Origin: Phytoseiulus persimilis
Taxonomy: Eukaryota > Arthropoda > Arachnida > Mesostigmata > Phytoseiidae
NCBI GenBank assembly: GCA_037576195.1
Contig: CM075104.1
Coordinates: 15,888,211-15,952,210 of the forward strand
Length of the DNA: 64,000 nucleotides
Direction of reading: 5' to 3'
A model generated the notes under the pieces. It was not told the DNA's origin. It searched no databases and saw only the letters and a program-made list of their open reading frames with translations. The position numbers and the translations under genes are program-made. Positions within the stretch are counted from its first letter, which is position 1. The number at the start of each line of letters is the position of its first letter. This document shows positions 33,901 to 48,100 of this stretch, one piece after another.

Positions 33901-36900
33901 ATGGCCGAACTTCAATTTCGGAATCGACATTGTCTGCTAGAGAAGAAACATTTGCCAAACTGTTTTTTCGTTGGCTTACTGCTGCTTTGGATCGCTTCAC
34001 TCGTGCAAAGTGAGTATACCTGAAAGATTGCCGCCGGATTTGCCGAGTGAAAGGGCAGCTGGACTTGTCCTCCGACCGCCCCTCCACTCATCGGCTCCAC
34101 TGGCCCGGGGTGCGGGAAGCGCTCCTCCCTGCGGATGGCTCTCGTGAGCGAGCCATACTCAAGACAGAGCTGTTCGTGATTAGAGAGAGCGACACCGTCA
34201 GTCGCTGATCCAGCCATGTATCGCAACGCAGCAGTCCTTGCATAGATTGTTGAAGCGAGAGGTTTTCGGTGGCTCCGACGACAGCTGAGCCGGCCCCTCG
34301 TTGATTCATGAAGCTCCATCAATGATGTTCCAAGGGAGCGATCCGCAAACTATTTATCAGCTGATCGAACCAAAGAGAAGCGGAAAGTTAATTCAGAGCA
34401 GAGCGAAACTGACTGTATCTTTGGGACTACTCCTCTGCTCCGAACACAAACTTCGGCGACTTCCATCAGGGATGATCGCCCGAAAACACGAGAGTGCGAC
34501 TCCGATTCATATGGCCTCACTCCTCGAGGTTGGACCATTCTTGAAAAACCGTGGAGCAAGTGTATCGTTGCGTTTCGGAGCACATCTCGGCTTCAAGTTC
34601 CATGGGATCCTTCAGGTACCGCGTGTTGTCCGCTTCCGAGACCTCCAGAGGTCTCCATCGATATCACTAACTCGGTCGGAACCATTTTCCCGAATCCCCC
34701 GGAATTCCAAAGAGACCGGCGACCCGAATCGCTCCGTCGCGGCCTTTGCTTTGATCGATGTCTCCGAGCGGTTCGCCATCATTAGACATGATGGCGAATC
34801 GACCGGCGCAGACATTTATGCGGAGTGCAAGCAGGAACTCCGTTGCGTAGCGGTTGTCCGCAGGGCGACTCCAGCGTCATCAGGACCCGATCGTTTTGGG
34901 TCAAAGTTAGCTCGATACCTCGCGAGTGGCGGTGTCGTCCTCGAGAATGCCTCGAAGCTCATTGTCTACATCCAGATTCCGACCAAGCTGCTTTACAGCT
35001 GAAAAAAAATCAGGAGATATTTTGAGCGATGCCAACTCAGCCGAACGTCGCCGATCGATAGCGGCAGCTGATAGTGGAGGGGAACCGAAACTCACAACAA
35101 CTCCGGAAAGAGCGTAGCCGAGAATGTTCTACGAGCAGTGCGGATGATTTATTTATGCTGGATTACTGCGAAATCCGCCAGTCCCAAGTGAAAGACCAAT
35201 ACCCTCCATCAGCGGCATCACTACAGCGGACGTCTTTAGCGTGTTTCTTCGTTCATCGTCGAACTTGCACCTCTTCGTGAATAAGGCCGCTCGTCGCGAG
35301 CGTAGCTCCAGCTGCGGATAGTGCATGCGGTTGCTATAGGACTATAGAGTGGCGCTTTTCCCGCGGCCAGTGCAGCTGGCAGATGGGGAATCCAGGGACT
35401 GCTCCCGAAATGCAGGTGGCTCTGTTGGCCTTTGCGATGGGCGTCCGTAGCATCGAGCGATGCATCACGTTCTAGGGCGCTCACGTCCATACATAGCCAG
35501 GTGGCCGAGCTGTTTGTGCAACTAGAATCGACATCCTGCTTACCCAGCGCCTCCGCGTGAACCCGTCCCGAAAGTCTCCGATCGACGGAACGGGATCGTT
35601 GTTCATATCGCCAGCCCGTGCATCAGTTCTCCATCTGACGTATTCCCTCGTCACGACGGCCCAGTGGCAGCCTCCCGTGTACTCAATAATTCACTGCTCA
35701 AACTCATCACCGCTAAATACGACTTGGCGGAAATGCGTTCGTGTGCATACGTCCATTCCATTCATTCATGAGGCCGTTTCGGCCACGAACAGCTCGCGTC
35801 TGGGTTTCATCAGAGGCAGACAAGACTTATGGGTGTGAAGGCCTCGGATCCGAATAGCGCGCGAATTCCCTCTCGAACTCAGCGCGAAAGAAGGATCTTT
35901 GGACTCACTCCGTCCATTGGGAGCGGCAGTCTCCCGGGAGGTAGTCCGAACTCACCACATGCCCAGCGGTCCCAGTTTTTCGGAGGGAGAGGATGAATGG
36001 TCGGAAGGATGGACAAATGAAGAGACGAGGGAATGGAGTCCGCGTTTATGGTCAGTCATGTGCGCTGGACAGGTATTCGCGGAATTTCGTCATCTGGAGG
36101 GACATCTTGGCGAACCACACCATGGATGACGAGCACAAGGAAGCCGGCAGGCCCTACGCCCTTGCGCAGAGGGCCTGTCGAATCAACCGAGTCGCATCCA
36201 GCCAAAGTGCGGAGCGAGGTGGAAATATCTTCCCCTGTCTCCAGCCGCTGCATTCGCTCGCTGCAGTCGGCGTTTACCTCGTGTCCCGAACGACGACCTG
36301 ATGTCATTGTCGCCGAAATTGAAATTTGCGGGCTCGGGATGCGAGCGGGATTCGAGGGCGTCGGTCCCAAACCTAAACTTCGTAGATATTTAGCCCCCAA
36401 CGGCGAGCAACATGGCGATGTCGAGTTCGAAGATGGGAGAGAGGTTCGATACCCGGAGAGAAACAACCAGCCTCGGCTGCTTCCCTCTGAGCCCGACTTC
36501 AGCGACGGAATCGGAAATTGTGGCGAGCCGTCGTTGTTCAGCGGCTCGCATTGCGAGGGCGAGGCCGCGAGGAGAGCCTGGAGAATGAGGACAACAATAT
36601 GTGCCTGCCTCCAGCCCTCGTCTGTGTTTAGTAGTCCAGCCAACCGATTCAACAGGACACGAAGCCAGCCGGAAGAGAGCCTTGCGGCGTTTTCAGGGGA
36701 AAAACGTTATTTATCAAGCGGAAAATGTCTCGTCGACTCCATCGTAAACTTCGCTCTCTCGCAGTTACTCCGTTGCGAGAATCGAAGTGACGTTGTTTGA
36801 GCAGCGTTTTCGGTATGGAGGATCGAAACCACTCGCCGTTTCGCGAATCTCCCTCAAAGGTAGCAGGATAGCGGTGCGAGAACTCCTTCATTTGCGGTCT

Positions 36901-39900
36901 CCGTCGTAGAACCTGTTTTGAGGGAGTTTGTCACAATGGCTGTCAGCCGGCTTCCCCTCGAGTTTTTGCACTGATTCCCATCGTTCTCGGGTCGTCTCCT
37001 CCGGCGGATTCCTCCGAGAGCTCATGTGGCCTTGTCGGCATTGGCTGCCGAGTTCTGATTCGATCAACAGCAGTTCCTTACGGGGATTGATTGTTTATCA
37101 AACAAGGCCGCCGTGCGAACGCCGATCGAGACCCGCGCCCTCCTACCTGCATCACGTTTTCATCCGTCGTACTGTTTCCCCTTCTCTCTGTTCATCTCTC
37201 CATGTGTGTATTCCTCCCAAGGGCTTCTCTCTATCATTTCTGGGGATCTCCGGCCGCACCGACATCAGCGAACTCCTGAGAGCGCCTAGCCGCACTGACG
37301 ACCGCCGCCGCAACATCCTGTTATTGCATTAGGTGAACAGCCTTCTTGGGAAGCGACTCTACAAGATTGGCTCGTTGGTTTGCTTGTTCCCTCGGTGTGG
37401 CTGGCGTGCTGGCTGGCGTGCTAGCCAGCCAGCTTTTCGACCGTCCGCGAGAATAATCTTATTAGAAGAAAACGAAGCCAGCGGCGGCAGGGGCGAGTCT
37501 TCTGTCAGTCTATGGGCTCCTCTTGCCTGCGCCGACAACAAGAAGCCTTGTTCGCACTGCCCACCGCGGTCCGTCTACGAAGGGAGCAAAAAAGGCTTGA
37601 GGTCACGACCACGGGCGCTACCCATACCCGAAGCCTACAAAGAGTGCCCGTAGCTGCTGCTGGTTTGAATACCTGATGTAATTTTGCCGGCTGTCTTATC
37701 TGGCTGCCGGCCGGCCGTCCGTCCGGCCTGATTGTTCGCGAGCAGGGATCCGATACACCACGCTGAAAGACTATCGAGCCAGGCATTCGATGAGATGCAT
37801 ACAAACCAGCCCGCAAACAAACAGTTGGAGCCGCACGCTATCCGCCGGGCGAGCGAGTTGGTCTACGACGCGCCGTTCCTCGGATGCTCGAACGAGTTCG
37901 GAGTCCTGTGCGAAAAAAAGTCTCACAGCGAAAGAAGAGGAACCCGGCGCTCGGACGACGGCTCTCACTCGGTCTCCCGCATCACGCGGTCATTCGTCCG
38001 CTCGCGTATCGAAATGGCCCGTGTCTTCGAGGGTCATGTGACAATCTTCCACCGTGTTCGTAGCCATTACGTCGAGGCCAGTCGGCAGCTAGCCATCGAT
38101 TGACAAGACGGAGTTCCCTCAAGGAAGCGGGACGAACAACATCGATTCGAGAAACGTACACAGTCGATCTCACCGGCGACTGCTAGGAAAAAAGATCCGT
38201 TGAGATCAACGCGGTTCTGCTCGTCCGGTATCACAGCGTTTCCCGGAGCTCGATCGCCGAGTGCGGTCGTTCTGAATCGACCAGCTCCCGTGGTTGTTGA
38301 CTCCGATCCTTTGCCAGCGCGGAAACTGTGAAAATGAAGCTGAAGACGGGAGTGAAAAGACGGAGGATCGCGACGGGGGAAAATGAGCGAACGATGGTCT
38401 CCGCGACGCTTTTCTTTGCCTTTCGCTGAAAGTAGATGAAGATTAATAGAACTGAATAAATAGGCGGCGGCCATCCAAGCTGGGCCAGTAGCCGGCGACC
38501 AGGCAGTCAGCTGGCTCTCGTTGCTTGCCTCTCTCCGTACTTTGCCAGCTTGTGACAAATAGGGGTTGAGTAATGGCCCGCAACATGGGCTGCGTGGACG
38601 GCAGGCAAACAGGCCCGCTCGATGGGAAGCTGGCACACGGTCAGGCCTGCCTTTCCTTTCAGGACTTTGCGATATGGCCCCTGTTAACAGTGGCAGTGAT
38701 GTCGCGCAAACGGCAGCATTCACTCCTTCCGTCTTCTCGCCCCGCTCGAGGGCGAAGCCGAGCGAAAATTCTGTCGGTATGCCGCCGCCCACCTGACGCC
38801 GTGTGGGCGGTGCGACGTTCTCGATCGCGCAGCTTTCCTCTCAACTGATGAGTCGTTTGCGGGTCGGGCCTGATTCAATGCGCTCGGACGGGATGAGCAT
38901 CGAATCGAAGTGACGACTCGAACTTCAGTCCAGACCCGATTCCATATTCAGGACATCGGTCGCGATTTGTACAGAGTTAGCGCAGCATTGGATTGAGTGG
39001 TTCGATGTAAGCCGCTCGAAGTTGACGAGCGAGAGCGAATCCGCACTGTCGAGTCAGATCACATCGTTCCCACACGCACACTTTAATCTCATCAGTGTTT
39101 CGGGCGTTTTGAATCCTCGATCGAATCACCACACACTCGTTCCAGCTGGTCCGGTGGGGCTCGGTACCGCGTTGGCACTGAACGCAGCTAACTCGGATTC
39201 TGAAAAGAGTTTTCCTTCTTTCCAGGCGCCGCTGGGGTCACAGTGACCGAAGTTCGTTTGCAGACCGATACAGCGACGCAAGATCAGTTTGTCCTAGAAG
39301 GCGAACCGGCCAGTCTCGTGTGTTCTTTTCAACTTAAGCCAAGTGAAGAACTTCAGAGAGTCACGTGGATCAAGGACGGGACGGATGAAGTCTACGTATG
39401 GAGACGGAAGTTCCAGCCTCTGGCCAGGCTCCTCTTTCAGGACAGAACTGATCTGTTGAACAGGTGCGTATCGCGACACGGGCTCTGCGTCCACCGGATC
39501 CACATCCCGGCCTTCGAGACAGCCCGCCGTTTCGACCTCGAGCCTCTCCTCGTCACCTGATTTCTCACCTTGGTTCCTCAGCAGAACAGCAGAGGGACTG
39601 TATCACCATCCGAGGGCATGGGTTTCAGTTGTAGCAGCAACTTGACTTCGCTGATCTTTCGACAGTCGGATTGGAATCGGGCGTTCAGACTGACTCATTG
39701 ATCATTCAGGGATAGGCCTTGAGGCCCTGCTAGGCATGCAGGTGCTTCATCATAAGCGGCTTGCCGGGGCCGTAATCCCTCGGCCGTCGTTGGGGCGTCG
39801 CCTTCCCGTTAAAAGGCCAACGACGGTCACTTTTGCTGCAGGCCCACAGCTCCCCGCTTCTGTCATACGAGATCTCATCTCGAAGATTTTTTCTTCACAT

Positions 39901-42900
39901 CCTCGTTCTCCTCCCGTCCCGATCGACTGGTGGGCCGATCCCCTGGACGTAGACGTCCTCGTCACGATGATCCGCATCGAGGTCTAGTGGTGACTCGGAG
40001 ACTCTGCTCAGCTCTACCGGCTTCGAGCCGAAGCACTTCGAGTGCTGCATATGAGAGATCTCAGACACAAGCAACAGCAGCCGGGTGGGGGGAGAAATGC
40101 CACGACGGCTGAAAGACAGCCCGGAGGCATCCGAGAATAGGAGATACTCAGCTGTTGTCGGTGCCTTCGCCGCCGCTGTTGTTGTTGTTTCGTCTCGTGT
40201 TCCTTTCCTGCGTTCCGTTGCTTGGGCACAGTTGGTGGAAGAACAAGCGGAGCGTCTACCGAGCTCCAGTGGAAGCGAACAGCTTTGCAGTCTGCTCGAC
40301 AAGCGGGCAGGGAGCGGAGCACGCTATCACGCGAGTTGTGCTTGCCTCTAGCTTGTTGTGGAGAACGCTTTTCGTTACTCGTTCGTTCCTCGTTGGTCGG
40401 GGAGCTTGCGTCGGCCCTCCCCCCCCTCTGGACGCTCGGGTGGTCGCGGACGCGATAAACTCCTCCAAAAGGCCAGAGTCGTATCCACGAGGAAGTCTGG
40501 AGTCGGCCAGGGAGACCGAGCGATCGAGCAAGCAGGCGGGCAAACAAACAGGCAAGCTGGGAGCAGAGGCGCACCAGCTCGAAGTGCAGAGCTCGAGTCA
40601 GGGCAACTCAAGACGAGCAAGCGGAGAAGGCAATGCGAGAGGAGCGGGCGGTGGCGCGCAAAAAAGACAAATGAAAACGGCATCGGGTCCTTCTACTCTG
40701 AACTCGCGTTCCGCTCAGCGGAACCCTCCGAACGCTTGCGGAATACTTCAGCCTTCGTGCTTTCCTGCCGCGGCTGCTGCCGGCACCGCTGCTGCACAAA
40801 TGTTGCCATTCTTTTTCTACTATCCATTCTGCTGCAGGAGATGCTTCTGCATACTTTTGCTTCACTTGTTCGTCGAGACGGCAAGCGCTGCTCTGAGGGC
40901 GCAAACCAACGAAGCGATTCGTTCAAAAAGCGTGATGTCAATCGCGCACGTTTCCGGTGTCGTTGTTTCGACCCTTAGCCCGGACACTCCGTGCATTGCA
41001 CAACGCCACAGAGTCCCGAACGCGCTCTCGATAGGCTTCAAACGCCCAGCGAGGGAGAGTCTTGAGGAAAAACTGCAATAATCATCAGTCGTTTCAGCGG
41101 GCAAACGCTCATGTAAATCAGTCAATAGGCGTGAGATTCTCAAACTCCCAGTGGCTGACGAGGCTGCTGCGTTCGCTCAGCGCGGAAAAGTCCATCACCT
41201 GAAGACCGATTTCTATTATCGAAGCTGTCCGCAAGAATCCAACCTCGAGTCCCTTTCACGGTTTCAGATCACCATCTTACGTAAAGATCGACTACGCCCA
41301 CCGGTCGATGCAAGGAAACTACACGTGCCGAGTGGAGACGGATAAAGGTGTCTCAGAAAACGACTTCTACTTGATAGTAATCGTTGACTCATGCAAAGAA
41401 AAGTCGTGGACGACGTACTCCGACAGAATAGGTTGGTGTGCAAGAAGCTGCGACTGCTTCCTCCTCTCCCAATTTGGCGATACGAGCATTCGCGTTGCTA
41501 GAGTTCTCGCTCCGGTGGTGCATCTCCCCCGAACGCGGGCGCCCTCACAAGCAGTCACGGACACTTTTGATGTGGATCTTCTCGTCGCGACACGACATTC
41601 ACAGAAGCCGCTCTGGAGATGTTGTCCCCGGAGATGTCTCCTGTTCGGCGCGCGTCCTGTCACTCATTCGAACGAGACCCGGTATCCCAGCCGCGTTGCT
41701 CTCCATCGACGTCGGATTGACGATCCGTCCGTTCTCGGATCCGCGATGAAATGTTTGGGGGGTGCGACGCCGGACGATCAGACCTTCCGTCGACTGAGTC
41801 GGATTTTTGTTCCCAGGTTGTACCGAAGAAATTCGGCTCGATTGTACGGGCATGTTCCCCAAACCTTCTCCTGCGTGCGGCGTGTACAACGAGGCAACGC
41901 AATCCTATTTGTCGACTGTGAGTATTTTGTTTCCCACCACGCCTCTTATTCTCGCTCTTGTCACAGCGCGTCCGGTGCCTGTCTAACGAGTCTTCGAACT
42001 ACGAGGTCCGAGGATTTCCTAACTCGGCTCATTGCCCCTGTTCCAGGTACCTTTCGACATCGTGAAGTTAGTTAATGGGACATATGATGTACAACTGCAT
42101 AGGATATTCAGGATCAAAGATTGGATTGAGTACCGGAACATATCGTTTCGGTGTCACGTCATCGTTCTGGGCACCGAATGGAGAACTGGTGAGGCCAGCT
42201 TGTTGTCGTTACTTCCCATTTTTCTCGCCGCGATTCGGTGACAATCCTCCCTCGCGCTGGAACGAGCGCTGGATCGGCAACGGTTGTTAGACTCCGATGA
42301 GAATATACTCGAGTCGCTGCCGGAAGCTTGTGTCTCGCCTCTTCGCTCCAAAGGAAAAAAAGCTATATAAATCGCGGAACTGTGCCGAGCTCTGTTCAAG
42401 GCGCCGAAGCCAAATAGGACGCTGCCGCCGCCGCCTCAAGGTTCTGAATTCGACGAGAGCCGGCACTCGGCAATGGATCGTCCTCCTGAGCTTTCTTCTG
42501 CTCTCTCGCACTCGGAATCGACTCGCTTTCTCGCCGTTTGTGTGTGTGTGTGTGTGTGTTTCACCTCGGAAGGGACGGCTACATCCTGGTGGGGACGTGG
42601 GCGGTAGCGTCGGCAGTTTGACGTCTCCTCTCATGTGAGTCTCCTCCCTTACAGGAATGACGCACCGGCTTTTCGGCGATCCTGGCTGCTTGAAGGATCC
42701 TCCGGAAGTGAGGAACGGCTCGTTCAACCTCACGGGCGAACTATCGTGTTGGGGTACGCCAGCTGAGGGTGCCGTAGTCCAGTACTCATGTCCAGCCGGG
42801 TTCAACGTTCGAGGCCATTCTAAGATGGTCTGCAAGAACGGCGCCTGGGTCGGGGTTATAGGAAACCGGAACCTCGACGAGTTAAACTATTCCCCGTCGG

Positions 42901-44989
42901 AAGTCATCAGCTGTGGTGAGTTCGTCAACATCACGTCATTGTTCCTACTGCTCTCGCTGCTGTCTCGAGAAACGGAATGAGCGCACGTAAACAAAACATT
43001 GGCGCACAGAGAAAATATTTTCGGCCTCGAATGCCGGCGAATATGAACGCCCGGACGCTTCCGAGTGAAAAGCGAGGCTCCGTTTTTCGGTGAAAAGGAA
43101 ACGGGGATGCAGTGTCAGATTGAGAACTCTCTCGAAATACGTTCTATTTCGACTTCGATGCCTCTAACCGTTTATTTTGCCGTCCGTTCCCTCCTCCTGT
43201 GCTCAGTTCGACGCAAGTGAGACATGGCTGAGTTTCACAAGACGTCGAACAGACCACGCGGACAGTCCTGGCTCGTTGAAGAAGACAGACCTCGCTGTAG
43301 TTATTGCCCCGACTCCATCGTCTGCCGAAAATTATCAGTGATCTTATATTATTGTTTCGTTTTATGTTGCTTCGGTGATCGTTGTCATCAATAAAGAGCT
43401 TTCGTCACTTCCTTTCCTCGTACTTTTGTTTTCTCCCCCCCCCCGGAACGGCTCAAGTTTTCGAGCTCTGGATACTCGTTCGGTACTCCTGGTCCTCGTT
43501 CCCGCTTCTCCCATCATACCAAAGCAAACAAACGATCTCTGCACCGGATTTCACGCTCGTCAGGCCCCACTTGCGTTCCGTAGTTGTTGATGTAGAAGTT
43601 TTGGTTCTCGTACGAGGCAAAACTTCACGGTTGAACTCTTCGATTGAGTCTGTACGAGTTCCAATGCAAAGGACGGCGAAACTGATTTCTGTGGGTTGCG
43701 TAATCCTTCATCCCTCTGCTCACAAACTCCCTTTCTCCTCATCGCTCGGTTCAACTCGAATACTCCTCCGATCCTGTCCCAGACCCATACTTGTCGTTCC
43801 GCGAAACATCCGACCTATGCGTGCATGGGCTCGCTGGCGACATCTTGCTCTCCTTAGCTCCCCTTGATGAACGGAATTAATTACTTGGCGACATATAAGT
43901 ATGCGCGCGAGAATATTTCGGCGAGACGGGAACGCGGGAGGTACCTTGTCTGACTCGCCCGAGTGGAGCGCAGCTTCTTCTTGTGAAGTCGTCGGCGTTT
44001 CGAGCGTACACACTCCCGGTGGTTGTCGCCGCCAACCTAAAAAGAGCCAACACGGTTCGCCTGACTAGTGGAAGGGTGGCACATTGTTGACTCGCTCGAG
44101 ACAAGGCCTGATTGGAGAGCTCTGCTGGACGGCACTATATGACGTGCCCGTGGACTCATTCAAAAGCGATGATTGTCCCGGCTTGTGTGGCCATTCAGAG
44201 CGTCTTCTTCTCCAAATCTCATTCCGACTCATGTCTCGTAAACAAGCAGCAAGCCGGCGTTCGCAAACAGCGGAGCGATAAATTCAAAAAATGGGGGTGA
44301 TAGATAGCGCCGACGTGGAAACGCCGCGAACAGTGGTCAGTGACCGAACGGAGTCGGGTGGACTTACGGAACGGGTGCAGCACAATCTCCGACCCTTCCT
44401 TTTGGGATGTGTCTGGGAGCGTCTCCATTCATCATCCTACTGCGCCGCGGTCTCTATCGGAGTTTCCAGATTCTGTAAATGCTCGTGCTCCGTTCTGGTT
44501 AGATTTCACCAGTTGTCGAACTTCGAAGTGTCCCACACCCGGTACGCTTCAGGTCCCTGGGTATTCCGGTCACCGGCCAGCGTCTTCTCAATCCGAGCGG
44601 GCCTAGAGGTTTTTCCGTTCGTTTCCAGTTCGGACTGGAGCTTTATCGCTCGATGTTCGAAGAGCGTCTTATCAGCGAGTGAGTCAACGCTGCATGAGGC
44701 CGCCTTATGGAGTTGACGGAGTAGTTTTCTCTCCTCGAGGATTAAACCGATATCGATTGTTGGACCCTTCATCACACACCTCGCTGACTCATTCAACGAG
44801 TGCTTCATCTCAGTCTACTGCCTCCCTCCTTCTTGAAATCCAACTTCCGTCATCGATTCCATCCTGATTCCCAGTCGACTTCGCTAACTCAGCCTTGAAA
44901 TTCCTTTCGCAGATGAAGACAGCGCTTCGACGGCACACATTTCGAGCTTATTACTACTGTGGTGTTTAATAGTTCATCATGCACTGTAA
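33901..44989 (+). CDS. GPI-type Ig-Ig-CCP cell-surface protein (Beat-like)
   Basis: Seven exons: 33901-34009, 39226-39463, 41268-41431, 41817-41917, 42047-42188, 42655-42915 and 44913-44989; 1092 nt, 363 residues, all phases consistent. Exon 1 is a signal peptide (hydrophobic 'FFVGLLLLWIASLV', residues 22-35). Ig1 spans about 43-160: Cys69, 'VTWIKDG' with Trp84, 'GNYTC' with Cys136. Its WxKDG pattern resembles the arthropod Beaten-path (Beat) family. Ig2 spans about 172-250: Cys180 ('RLDC') and Cys240 ('SFRC'). One sushi/CCP domain, residues 263-338, has Cys263, 297, 311 and 338, 'YSCPAGF' and Trp316. The tail DEDSASTAHISS-LLLLWCLIV-HHAL ends in a hydrophobic stretch with no basic stop-transfer, as GPI signals do; residues 342-344 are candidate attachment sites. 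N-glycosylation sequons start at 133, 214, 235, 272 and 276. It probably works in adhesion or recognition at the cell surface. The weakest splice is the exon 3 donor (GTTGGT at 41432). I know no characterised orthologue with this exact order. Confidence 0.82.
34010..39225 (+). other. Intron 1 of the Ig-CCP gene
   Basis: It opens GTGAGT and closes TTTCCTTCTTTCCAG. At 5.2 kb it is the longest intron in the window; first introns of this size often carry regulatory DNA. It contains open frames of 233 (34301-35002) and 255 codons (36033-36800) without domains, and GGCT/GCCA-rich words around 37400 and 37710. No transposon was recognised. Confidence 0.75.
39464..41267 (+). other. Intron 2 of the Ig-CCP gene
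   Basis: A phase-2 intron (GTGCGT...GGTTTCAG) that splits the first Ig domain between its Trp84 and Cys136 halves. A 308-codon open frame within it (40155-41081) is low-complexity and I do not call it a gene. Confidence 0.75.
42363..42372 (+). promoter_or_regulatory. TATA-box-like site inside intron 5 of the Ig-CCP gene
   Basis: CTATATAAAT follows an A-rich run and precedes GC-rich DNA about 290 bp upstream of the CCP exon. It fits the TATA consensus and points along the gene. No initiator or transcript evidence is visible, so it may be chance. Confidence 0.25.
42539..42559. repeat. (TG)n microsatellite
   Basis: About ten TG units inside intron 5 of the Ig-CCP gene. Confidence 0.95.
42916..44912 (+). 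other. Intron 6 of the Ig-CCP gene, with possible alternative end
   Basis: It starts with a strong GTGAGT and ends TTCCTTTCGCAG. If retained, the frame runs on through a second hydrophobic tail ('SLFLLLSLLS') to a stop at 42978-42980, and AATAAA lies 410 bp further on at 43390. A short C run lies near 43435. Confidence 0.7.
43390..43395 (+). promoter_or_regulatory. Possible alternative poly(A) signal
   Basis: AATAAA followed by T-rich DNA ('CGTACTTTTGTTTTCTCC'). It would serve a transcript that keeps intron 6 of the Ig-CCP gene. Chance occurrence is quite possible. Confidence 0.3.
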
Positions 44990-45193
44990 AAAGGCCTCAT
45001 CCATAAGAAAATTTCTCTTCCAAATTCCAAGGTGAGTCTTACATCGGCCGCGTGAAATCACTCGAGGCGGCCAGCGACTCCGGCTTTGCAAAGTGAGGAG
45101 CCCAGATTCAGAATGCAACATCACCGCAGGTTTCAGATCTGGGATGTTCACAGAAATCACAGATCTTGGCAGCCGCATCCCTTATTCGGAGCA

Positions 45194-45199
45194 AATAAA
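45194..45199 (+). promoter_or_regulatory. Poly(A) signal of the Ig-CCP gene
   Basis: AATAAA lies 205 bp after the TAA at 44987-44989, a sensible 3' UTR length. It is the first canonical signal downstream of the stop. Confidence 0.6.
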
Positions 45200-48100
45200 C
45201 GCGAGAAAACAAATTGCGTAACCGCATTCCGGAATGCTCATGTCATCCACATCGACTTGCAGATCATTTTTTCAATTAAGAGCTCTCGCGCCTGCCAGGG
45301 ATTCAATCGCCTACAACGAAACGTGTATACATTGACATTTGATAGCCGATCGCTGCTCCTATCGTTCCCCGTCCCGATGTTGCCGCTACAATCTAAACTT
45401 TCCTGGCGCGATATCATCATCATCATCATCATCATCTGCTGTCCCGACTCCATTATCCGTCTCATGAACTTCATCGTCGACCGCATAAACCCCAATCTAA
45501 TCAGTTCGGTTCGTGGAGAAGTTCTCGAACTCCCCCATTAGCTCCAATATCAGGAACCTCGTCATCTTCGCCAAGGTCCTCATCATCATCATCACGGTGT
45601 TGAAAGTTGATACGTTCCCGTAGCTGGAGCCGAAGGAGATTCCACCAGCATCGCCGCGAGCGAGCGACTCGCAGTCGTTCCGCCGCTCTGATGCAGCGGA
45701 ATCGGTTCGGTTCCAAGGCAGGTCGGCCGTCTCAAGAAAAACAACAGACGAGAAAGTCGCGCGCTTGTATATACAAAACCCCGACAAACAAACTGTTCAG
45801 ACAACAGCCGTTAAGGCAAAAGTATCACCTGCAGCGGCAACCAGTCTCAGGTAGAAGCTGTTGGGAAGTGGAGAGGGAAGCAAACGTTGGAGCGACTAAG
45901 GAAAACAAAGCCGACCCGAGCTCTTCTGCGTCAATATTTCACCATCTCAGAGGATGGCAGAGGGATGATTCTAGTGAGACCACCTTGAGGCGTTCTGGTG
46001 CACGCCGGCAACCTCCGCCTCCTAGGCTGATCCCAAGTTTTGTATCACATCTTTGGCACTGATCGAATGAGTGTGCTCCTCTGAGACAGTATCATTCGCA
46101 ACAGAGAGAGTTTCAGGTGTAGAGAACGGAGCAAAGTGATATGGATGGATGAAACCATGAATGCACTCGTGAATGACTGGTGAGCGAAAATAGTTTTTTT
46201 TTTACTGCTGCGCCTCGTGTACAGAAACATGGAAGACGCTTCTTTCTGGCGAAGATCCTTCCTGAAACTAATAGACCGAGATGAGCATTTTTCAGCTGGA
46301 CACCCTCTCTCTGTCCTGTCGTTCTCGTTAATTCCTTGGGGGTCAGCTATGATGTTGGGGTTGCCGGTTGCGATGGAATGCACACGGTTGCATCGGATTT
46401 GTCTCAACGCTATGTTATTATGGAACACGATACCACTTGTACCTCCTCCAACGTTGAATGTCGATCCGATCCTTAATGGAATGCAGATATAGAAGAGTTA
46501 TCTAAGTAATGGAATTTTCTATGTAAATAGAAGAATAAATACACGAAAAAATGAATAAAATGATTTCCTGAACCCTTTTCTCTCCTGAAACGCCCACGAA
46601 CTGGAGCTGATTTATGCCCTGTACCACACTCATCAACGGGGTTTCGCCCACCGAGAGTTTCGGGCTGAGAATGAGCTCGTTGGAACTCTTTCCTCCACCG
46701 CTTTTTTCCAGACCTCATCGCGTATGCTTCTCTGGACTCCGATATTCCGGGGCGATATAACTGACGAAAATATGAGTAGAATGAGGTAAAACTAAAAATT
46801 TTCCGAGTGCTCCGCAGCAATCTACGCATGGTGATAGTTGAGGCGGCTGGCTGGCTATCAGCATATTCGGTTAGAGACCTAATCCGAGCAGGCGTTCGCC
46901 ATCAAGAGTTACCGCGTCATTACGCGGAACCTTTGCCATTATGGTACAGCAGCAGCAGAGCCGGGCTCGAGGCTGGCAAACGGGCTATCCAGCCAGCCAG
47001 TCAGGCCGGGCCTGAGCGAACAGGCCCGAGTTGAGCCGATACGAGGATGGCTTTCCTCATGGATTCACGCGTGTCTATGTACTGCTGCAATCTATGTCTC
47101 CTTTGCCTCCCGATAGTGCCATGCGCGGGCGCCAAACAGAGCTCCATTATTAGGATAGAATTCTTCTCTGCGGCGCCTCCGATTCTCGCGGGGGAAAGTC
47201 GCACATATCCAAGTCCGAGAGCTAGAGTGAGGGTGTTGCGTTCATCGCAGCCTCTATGTTCGCGATAAAATCTGCAGTTTCCTCCGTCGTGTTCATATTT
47301 TTCCGTTTCTCCGATGAGAACCGTGTCTCCCATCTGATTCACCCACGAATCTCGATTTCCGGGCGTCTTCGAGCTGACCCCAATCATCCGTTGATTAATG
47401 GCTCCCTGTCTCATCGGAGATTATCTCGCGCATAGCAGCCGCACTCCAGAAATCCCAGAAAATCTTCATGAATATTGCTCAGTAGTTGCAACTGCCAGGT
47501 TTCAGCAGCGACGGATTTTCCGCATGACCCCAGACGGCGTTGTAAAACTGTAATTGAACAGCCCGCTCTATGTTCGACTAGATCATCCACCAAATGTGAA
47601 TCATGACAACTCAGCGGAATCGGGGAGCGTGTGCGCCGAGCATTCTCCCGGGACCCCATGCGATGTTGTGGAGCTCCTAAACACAGACTTGGGATCCAAG
47701 CTCGCTCTCAGACCACAGCCAAAGGAGGATTTCCAGCTTGTGAATCCCCTCAAGAGCAGACGCCCTCTCCCCGATGCGTGTTCAGCTTGATTTCGGTGCG
47801 TTGTTCGGGGCCAAAAACATTCCGCTGTTCCAGGAAGCCGGATGCGCGTCTGGTTGCATGGGAAACCAAAAAACTCCCCGCTGTGGAGAGTCCGAAATCC
47901 GCCGCAGTCAGGCCGTGTGGCGCACGCAACCAAACGGGCACAGGACGCCGAGCACGCTGCATAAATGCATGTGCGCTCGTCGTACTCGGGATTTCAGAGA
48001 GCCGGTGGGAGGCAGCGGACGAGAACTTTGGCCTGAGGTGTCACAAACAGAGGATGTTCCCGGAGGACGATCATAGTCCGTCCCGCTCGTTCTCTCGTCG

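Follow-up and report, generated by a model that had tools for sequence, protein, structure and literature searches.

Does the mite Phytoseiulus persimilis encode a surface recognition protein in which a complement-type (CCP or sushi) module follows two immunoglobulin (Ig) domains, and from what kind of gene might such a protein have come? The question is raised by a locus on contig CM075104.1 (GenBank assembly GCA_037576195.1; 181 Mb, 127 contigs), in a stretch of 64,000 nucleotides (positions 15,888,211 to 15,952,210, forward strand) that we call the window and whose GC content is 48–57% in 2-kb steps. An earlier note had joined seven exons in perfect phase there and had read them as a Beat-like Ig-Ig-CCP protein with a GPI-type tail. 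Reading the sequence again, we recovered all seven plus-strand exons at the same coordinates, with AG/GT borders and joined in phase into 363 codons and a stop; the intron phases are, in order, 1, 2, 1, 0, 1 and 1, and the longest intron, intron 1, is 5,216 bp. The exons, in window positions, are as follows.

33901..34009, + strand: exon 1, start codon and signal peptide, residues 1-37; closes in phase 1
39226..39463, + strand: exon 2, start of the V-set-type Ig1, residues 37-116; closes in phase 2
41268..41431, + strand: exon 3, remainder of Ig1 including C136; closes in phase 1
41817..41917, + strand: exon 4, putative start of Ig2 with the motif CTGMFPKP; closes in phase 0
42047..42188, + strand: exon 5, putative remainder of Ig2 with NGTYDV and with FRC at C240; closes in phase 1
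42655..42915, + strand: exon 6, the whole CCP/Sushi module; phase 1 at both ends (class 1-1)
44913..44989, + strand: exon 7, GPI-like tail DEDSASTAHISSLLLLWCLIVHHAL and stop; the least certain exon

Exon 1 is well supported, for of the window's 180 GTRAG donors, counted on both strands, only its own closes a signal-peptide-like phase-1 first exon; the signal peptide proposed before is borne out. The donor of exon 3 (gttggt) is weak. A codon model trained on other genes of the same genome, mostly of Ig type, ranks the frame used here as the best of six in all five of exons 2-6; exons 3, 4 and 6, but not exons 2 and 5, outscore 95% of random open stretches of 50 codons, and for exons 1 and 7 another frame scores higher. 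Codon choice alone proves little, since, once amino-acid composition is taken out, exons 3 and 6 alone exceed zero, both slightly, and exons 1, 2, 4, 5 and 7 are negative. A search of the genome with the whole protein, which scored few candidates and detects close copies only, gave seven matches, all of them its own exons. The locus is, in our view, a credible arthropod gene whose product would be a cell-surface recognition protein with an Ig1, a more doubtful Ig2, one sushi domain and a hydrophobic tail.

The sushi domain is the clearest module. CCP modules have four ordered cysteines and a tryptophan, and C263, C297, C311, a tryptophan and C338 occur here in that order, together with an extra cysteine, C283, and a long loop between the tryptophan and C338. 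In a profile search the Sushi model PF00084 matches residues 266-317 at 25.3 bits (curated cut-off 20.7), which confirms the single sushi domain that had been placed after the Ig region. The best PDB matches of the CCP are complement-type proteins (3gau, E 8.1e-11 summed over repeats; 1e5g, E 2.5e-6); a single-sequence fold of its exon, with a mean pLDDT of 52.6, was too poor for use.

The first Ig domain also exceeds a curated threshold, matching the Pfam Ig_2 model over residues 54-144 at 28.1 bits (cut-off 27); the Ig_3, V-set, I-set and ig models each fall under their own Pfam cut-offs there. The best PDB Ig matches listed are JAML, CADM1 and CAR, all generic V-set adhesion domains, and Beat is absent among the PDB matches listed. 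For the second Ig, neither Pfam (E values up to 10) nor the PDB gives a match; the evidence for it is a cysteine pair and a motif common to four two-Ig proteins of the same genome, from which we infer that residues 158-250 may have an Ig fold. Thus, of the two-Ig head that had been claimed, Ig1 stands by profile and Ig2 does not. Four cysteines lie outside the canonical pairs (C158, C172, C191 and C283) and might brace both the hinge between Ig1 and Ig2 and the CCP, their pairing being a guess.

What is known of Beat/Side-type Ig networks comes mostly from Drosophila. Were the gene a true Beat paralog that has gained a CCP, it might bind a Side-family receptor through Ig1, but we consider this unlikely. 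In the available passages of the sources, Beat proteins, like the protein described here, have two Ig domains and occur in both secreted and membrane-bound forms (PMC5578738), and Beat, thought to be membrane-tethered, binds Side through the first Ig domains of both (PMC9743010); unlike it, they carry no CCP that those passages mention (PMC5578738, PMC9743010), and the C-terminus of Drosophila Beat Ia is rich in cysteine (PMC9743010). Sidestep differs further: its five Ig domains are accompanied by an FNIII domain and a transmembrane segment (PMC5578738). Three models give similar scores for Ig1, namely 16.1 bits (Beat), 12.2 (Side-like) and 11.6 (a local family described below), and the unrelated Ig L026 scores 13.5 against the Beat model, which was built from two putative Beat sequences, one of them partial. 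Scores by hhalign are similarly close: 36.0 for the local family (34.2 without its member M7), 34.9 for Side-like and 32.0 for Beat, with 24.8 for two domains of the unrelated L071. Ig2 gives -1.3 bits on the Beat model, a score that 465 of 1000 shuffled sequences equal or better, and the Ig1 intron lies in another phase and place. The membership in the Beat family suggested for this protein is therefore not supported; to judge from its sequence, Ig1 appears loosely Beat-like, of the V-set kind found in Beats.

Several other Ig loci came to light in these comparisons. The best non-self genome match of Ig1 is L049, which we take to be a Beat (E 0.48, 27% identity, not significant, four candidates scored); L049, together with L055 and L056 (C3:9156902-9157591 and on), is one 384-residue open frame with three Ig_2 stretches and, close to the C-terminus, a hydrophobic one. 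L017 (C3:14147804) and L018 (C3:14464969), presumably Side proteins, are two similar V-set domains that appear to resemble Sidestep Ig1; they are possible partners for Beat-type proteins in P. persimilis. Only one place, L016 (Ig KITWFKDGVEIF), matches two degenerate DNA patterns for the Beat signature, and we judged it not to be a Beat; the patterns are too strict, since they also miss L049 and the gene under study. Viral and bacterial collections, scanned for arthropod contaminants, yielded 3 and 48 pattern matches and no relative.

The same genome holds a family of two-Ig proteins with hydrophobic tails, found by a genome-wide V-set scan and then a search with one of its proteins. It has at least four full and three partial members, with a VKWFFN..P.YQWIP-like motif in Ig1, and we know of no published name for it.

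C3:36170245: M1, two-Ig, hydrophobic-tail protein
C4:25971715: M2, two-Ig, hydrophobic-tail protein
C3:35866138: M3, two-Ig, hydrophobic-tail protein
C3:18906985: M4 (L064), two-Ig, hydrophobic-tail protein in one open frame
C1:20815134, C23:7501 and C43:2509: M5-M7, partial members

These proteins share with ours a V-set-type Ig1, a hydrophobic C-terminal tail and an Ig2 motif, C-x(1,3)-G-x-F-P-x-P, which is present in M1-M4 and absent from M7 and eight other entries (mostly single domains); unlike ours, M1-M4 as read have no CCP, and M1 has another phase at its Ig2 intron. Identity to M1 is 21%. The Ig2 of M4 matches the Pfam C1-set model (22.2 bits, cut-off 21). On a profile of the local family our Ig2 scores 2.5 bits, a value equalled or bettered by 12 of 1000 shuffles, where the unrelated L071 Ig2 scores 5.3 and the member M7 only 4.0; in hhalign the E value against the family is 0.058 without M7 and 0.67 with it. 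M4 has no introns, whereas M1-M3 have them, and is possibly a retrocopy.

In M1, M2 and M3, whose junctions we checked, a phase-1 intron separates Ig2 from the tail exon, and in the present gene a phase-1 intron likewise precedes the hydrophobic tail exon, provided that exon 7 is real. Class 1-1 domains are, as a rule, inserted into pre-existing phase-1 introns, according to the part of the source consulted (PMC3927616). The CCP exon is in phase 1 on both sides and stands where M1-M3 have their pre-tail phase-1 intron, and can thus be seen as a shuffled class 1-1 module. The reading we favour, to which we give somewhat less than an even chance, is that of a secreted-pathway protein held on the outer face of the membrane, whose gene descends from, or is a distant cousin of, the local family of two-Ig, hydrophobic-tail proteins and gained its class 1-1 CCP exon in a phase-1 intron lying between Ig2 and the tail exon. 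It builds on features that can be read off the DNA, namely the exon phases, Ig1, the CCP and the hydrophobic ends.

Three 3' ends were considered for the gene: besides exon 7, reading through either of the last two donors gives a hydrophobic tail and a stop.

42189..42241, + strand: alternative end A, read-through into intron 5, giving GEASLLSLLPIFLAAIR and a stop
42916..42980, + strand: alternative end B, read-through of exon 6, giving GEFVNITSLFLLLSLLSRETE and a stop at 42980
43390..43395, + strand: AATAAA, possible poly(A) signal of end B; a T-rich stretch follows
45194..45199, + strand: AATAAA, the closest of the poly(A) signal candidates of exon 7; further ones at 46534 and 46554

Exon 7 is the weakest piece of the gene model. 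Its codon choice is poor, with two reverse-strand frames outscoring its own in the codon model. Of 36 phase-1 terminal-exon candidates that a loose acceptor filter admits in 42916-48000, it is the one that passes a GPI-like filter, but in all the DNA scanned, namely both strands of the window and of six 10-kb stretches, 21 of 1364 candidates pass, which puts the chance expectation for this interval at about 0.55. That the gene instead ends at exon 6, with the stop at 42980, polyadenylation after 43390 and no exon 7, is a real if somewhat doubtful possibility; the product would be an Ig-Ig-CCP protein with a short hydrophobic tail, which is compatible with the reading we favour. End B has the better codon score, 0.128 per codon where exon 7 has -0.536 (0.14 and -0.29 once composition is taken out), and the AATAAA at 43390 lies downstream of its stop. 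Hydrophobic GPI-like tails occur in 3 of the 137 phase-1 GTGAG read-throughs of 10-40 residues in the scanned DNA, and two of these three are introns 5 and 6 of this gene. This count is a lead, not proof, since it was made after the tails had been seen and at a cut-off (2.4; 2.5 in an earlier count) equal to the exon-6 tail's own score. A usual GPI signal has a spacer and no charged end such as SRETE, whereas the exon-6 tail closes in SRETE and has no spacer past the last CCP cysteine; in addition, M1-M3 carry a separate phase-1 tail exon. Since the C-terminus is hydrophobic at all three 3' ends considered (A, B and exon 7), the hydrophobic part of the GPI-like tail claimed earlier holds at each, while exon 7 as its source is left in doubt. 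By its sequence, such a tail probably ties the protein to the membrane.

End A bears on a different reading, in which two neighbouring genes, or an artefact of exon joining, have been taken for one: the Ig exons would stop in intron 5 with the tail GEASLLSLLPIFLAAIR, and the CCP exon would belong elsewhere. Reading through exon 5 does yield a hydrophobic tail, and with it the two-Ig-plus-tail layout of the local family. However, exons 5 and 6 lie on the same strand, 466 bp apart, in matching phase and with AG/GT borders; a search of intron 5 for AATAAA found none, and just one TATAAA, at 42366; and the scan of GTRAG donors found no other signal-peptide-like phase-1 first exon in the window. 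We consider two genes very improbable.

If the favoured reading of a two-Ig family member with an inserted CCP is correct, the hydrophobic C-terminal signal, of GPI type or a short membrane anchor, would hold the protein outside the cell. The outermost V-set Ig1 would then bind a partner on another cell, by analogy with the binding of Beat Ig1 to Side Ig1, and Ig2 and the CCP would form a stalk, perhaps stiffened by disulfides, that raises Ig1 above the membrane or offers a side contact; any signalling would require a transmembrane partner. By this analogy, we infer that the protein functions as a tethered recognition molecule. Of the reading given in the earlier note, the signal peptide, the V-set Ig1, the CCP and the hydrophobic end are supported, and membership in the Beat family is not.

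Ig and CCP modules have met in an arthropod protein before. Drosophila Hikaru genki, as described in the accessible part of the source, has one Ig-like and five CCP domains and is found in synaptic clefts (PMC9083331), so the combination as such is not new. That our gene is a relative of this secreted synaptic protein is nevertheless extremely unlikely: the two have both kinds of module in common, but their domain descriptions set them apart, with five CCPs and no two-Ig head on one side and a single CCP, a pair of Ig-type domains and a hydrophobic tail on the other. The part consulted of a paper on tick haemocytes reports CCP proteins with other domains and names no Ig-CCP protein (PMC4430169), and a limited search of the open-licence literature found no published two-Ig, one-CCP protein with a membrane tail. 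Among the 50 Sushi and 150 V-set matches listed genome-wide, no pair lies within 50 kb and one pair within 100 kb; these matches miss the gene's own exons, so the count is no proof of uniqueness.

The protein looks like an ordinary two-Ig surface protein that acquired a sushi module. If true, uptake of a CCP by exon insertion would illustrate how new cell-recognition molecules arise in arthropods from modules that vertebrates use in complement, and the case is testable, with the recipient intron, the inserted module and a candidate recipient family all within one genome. Since the CCP exon is in phase 1 on both sides, it could in addition be switchable, one gene giving receptors with or without the CCP and with three alternative anchors, and so a lineage-specific tuning of the recognition head; we think this quite unlikely. 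Skipping the CCP exon keeps the frame and, with the exon-7 tail, gives an Ig-Ig-tail protein of 276 residues.
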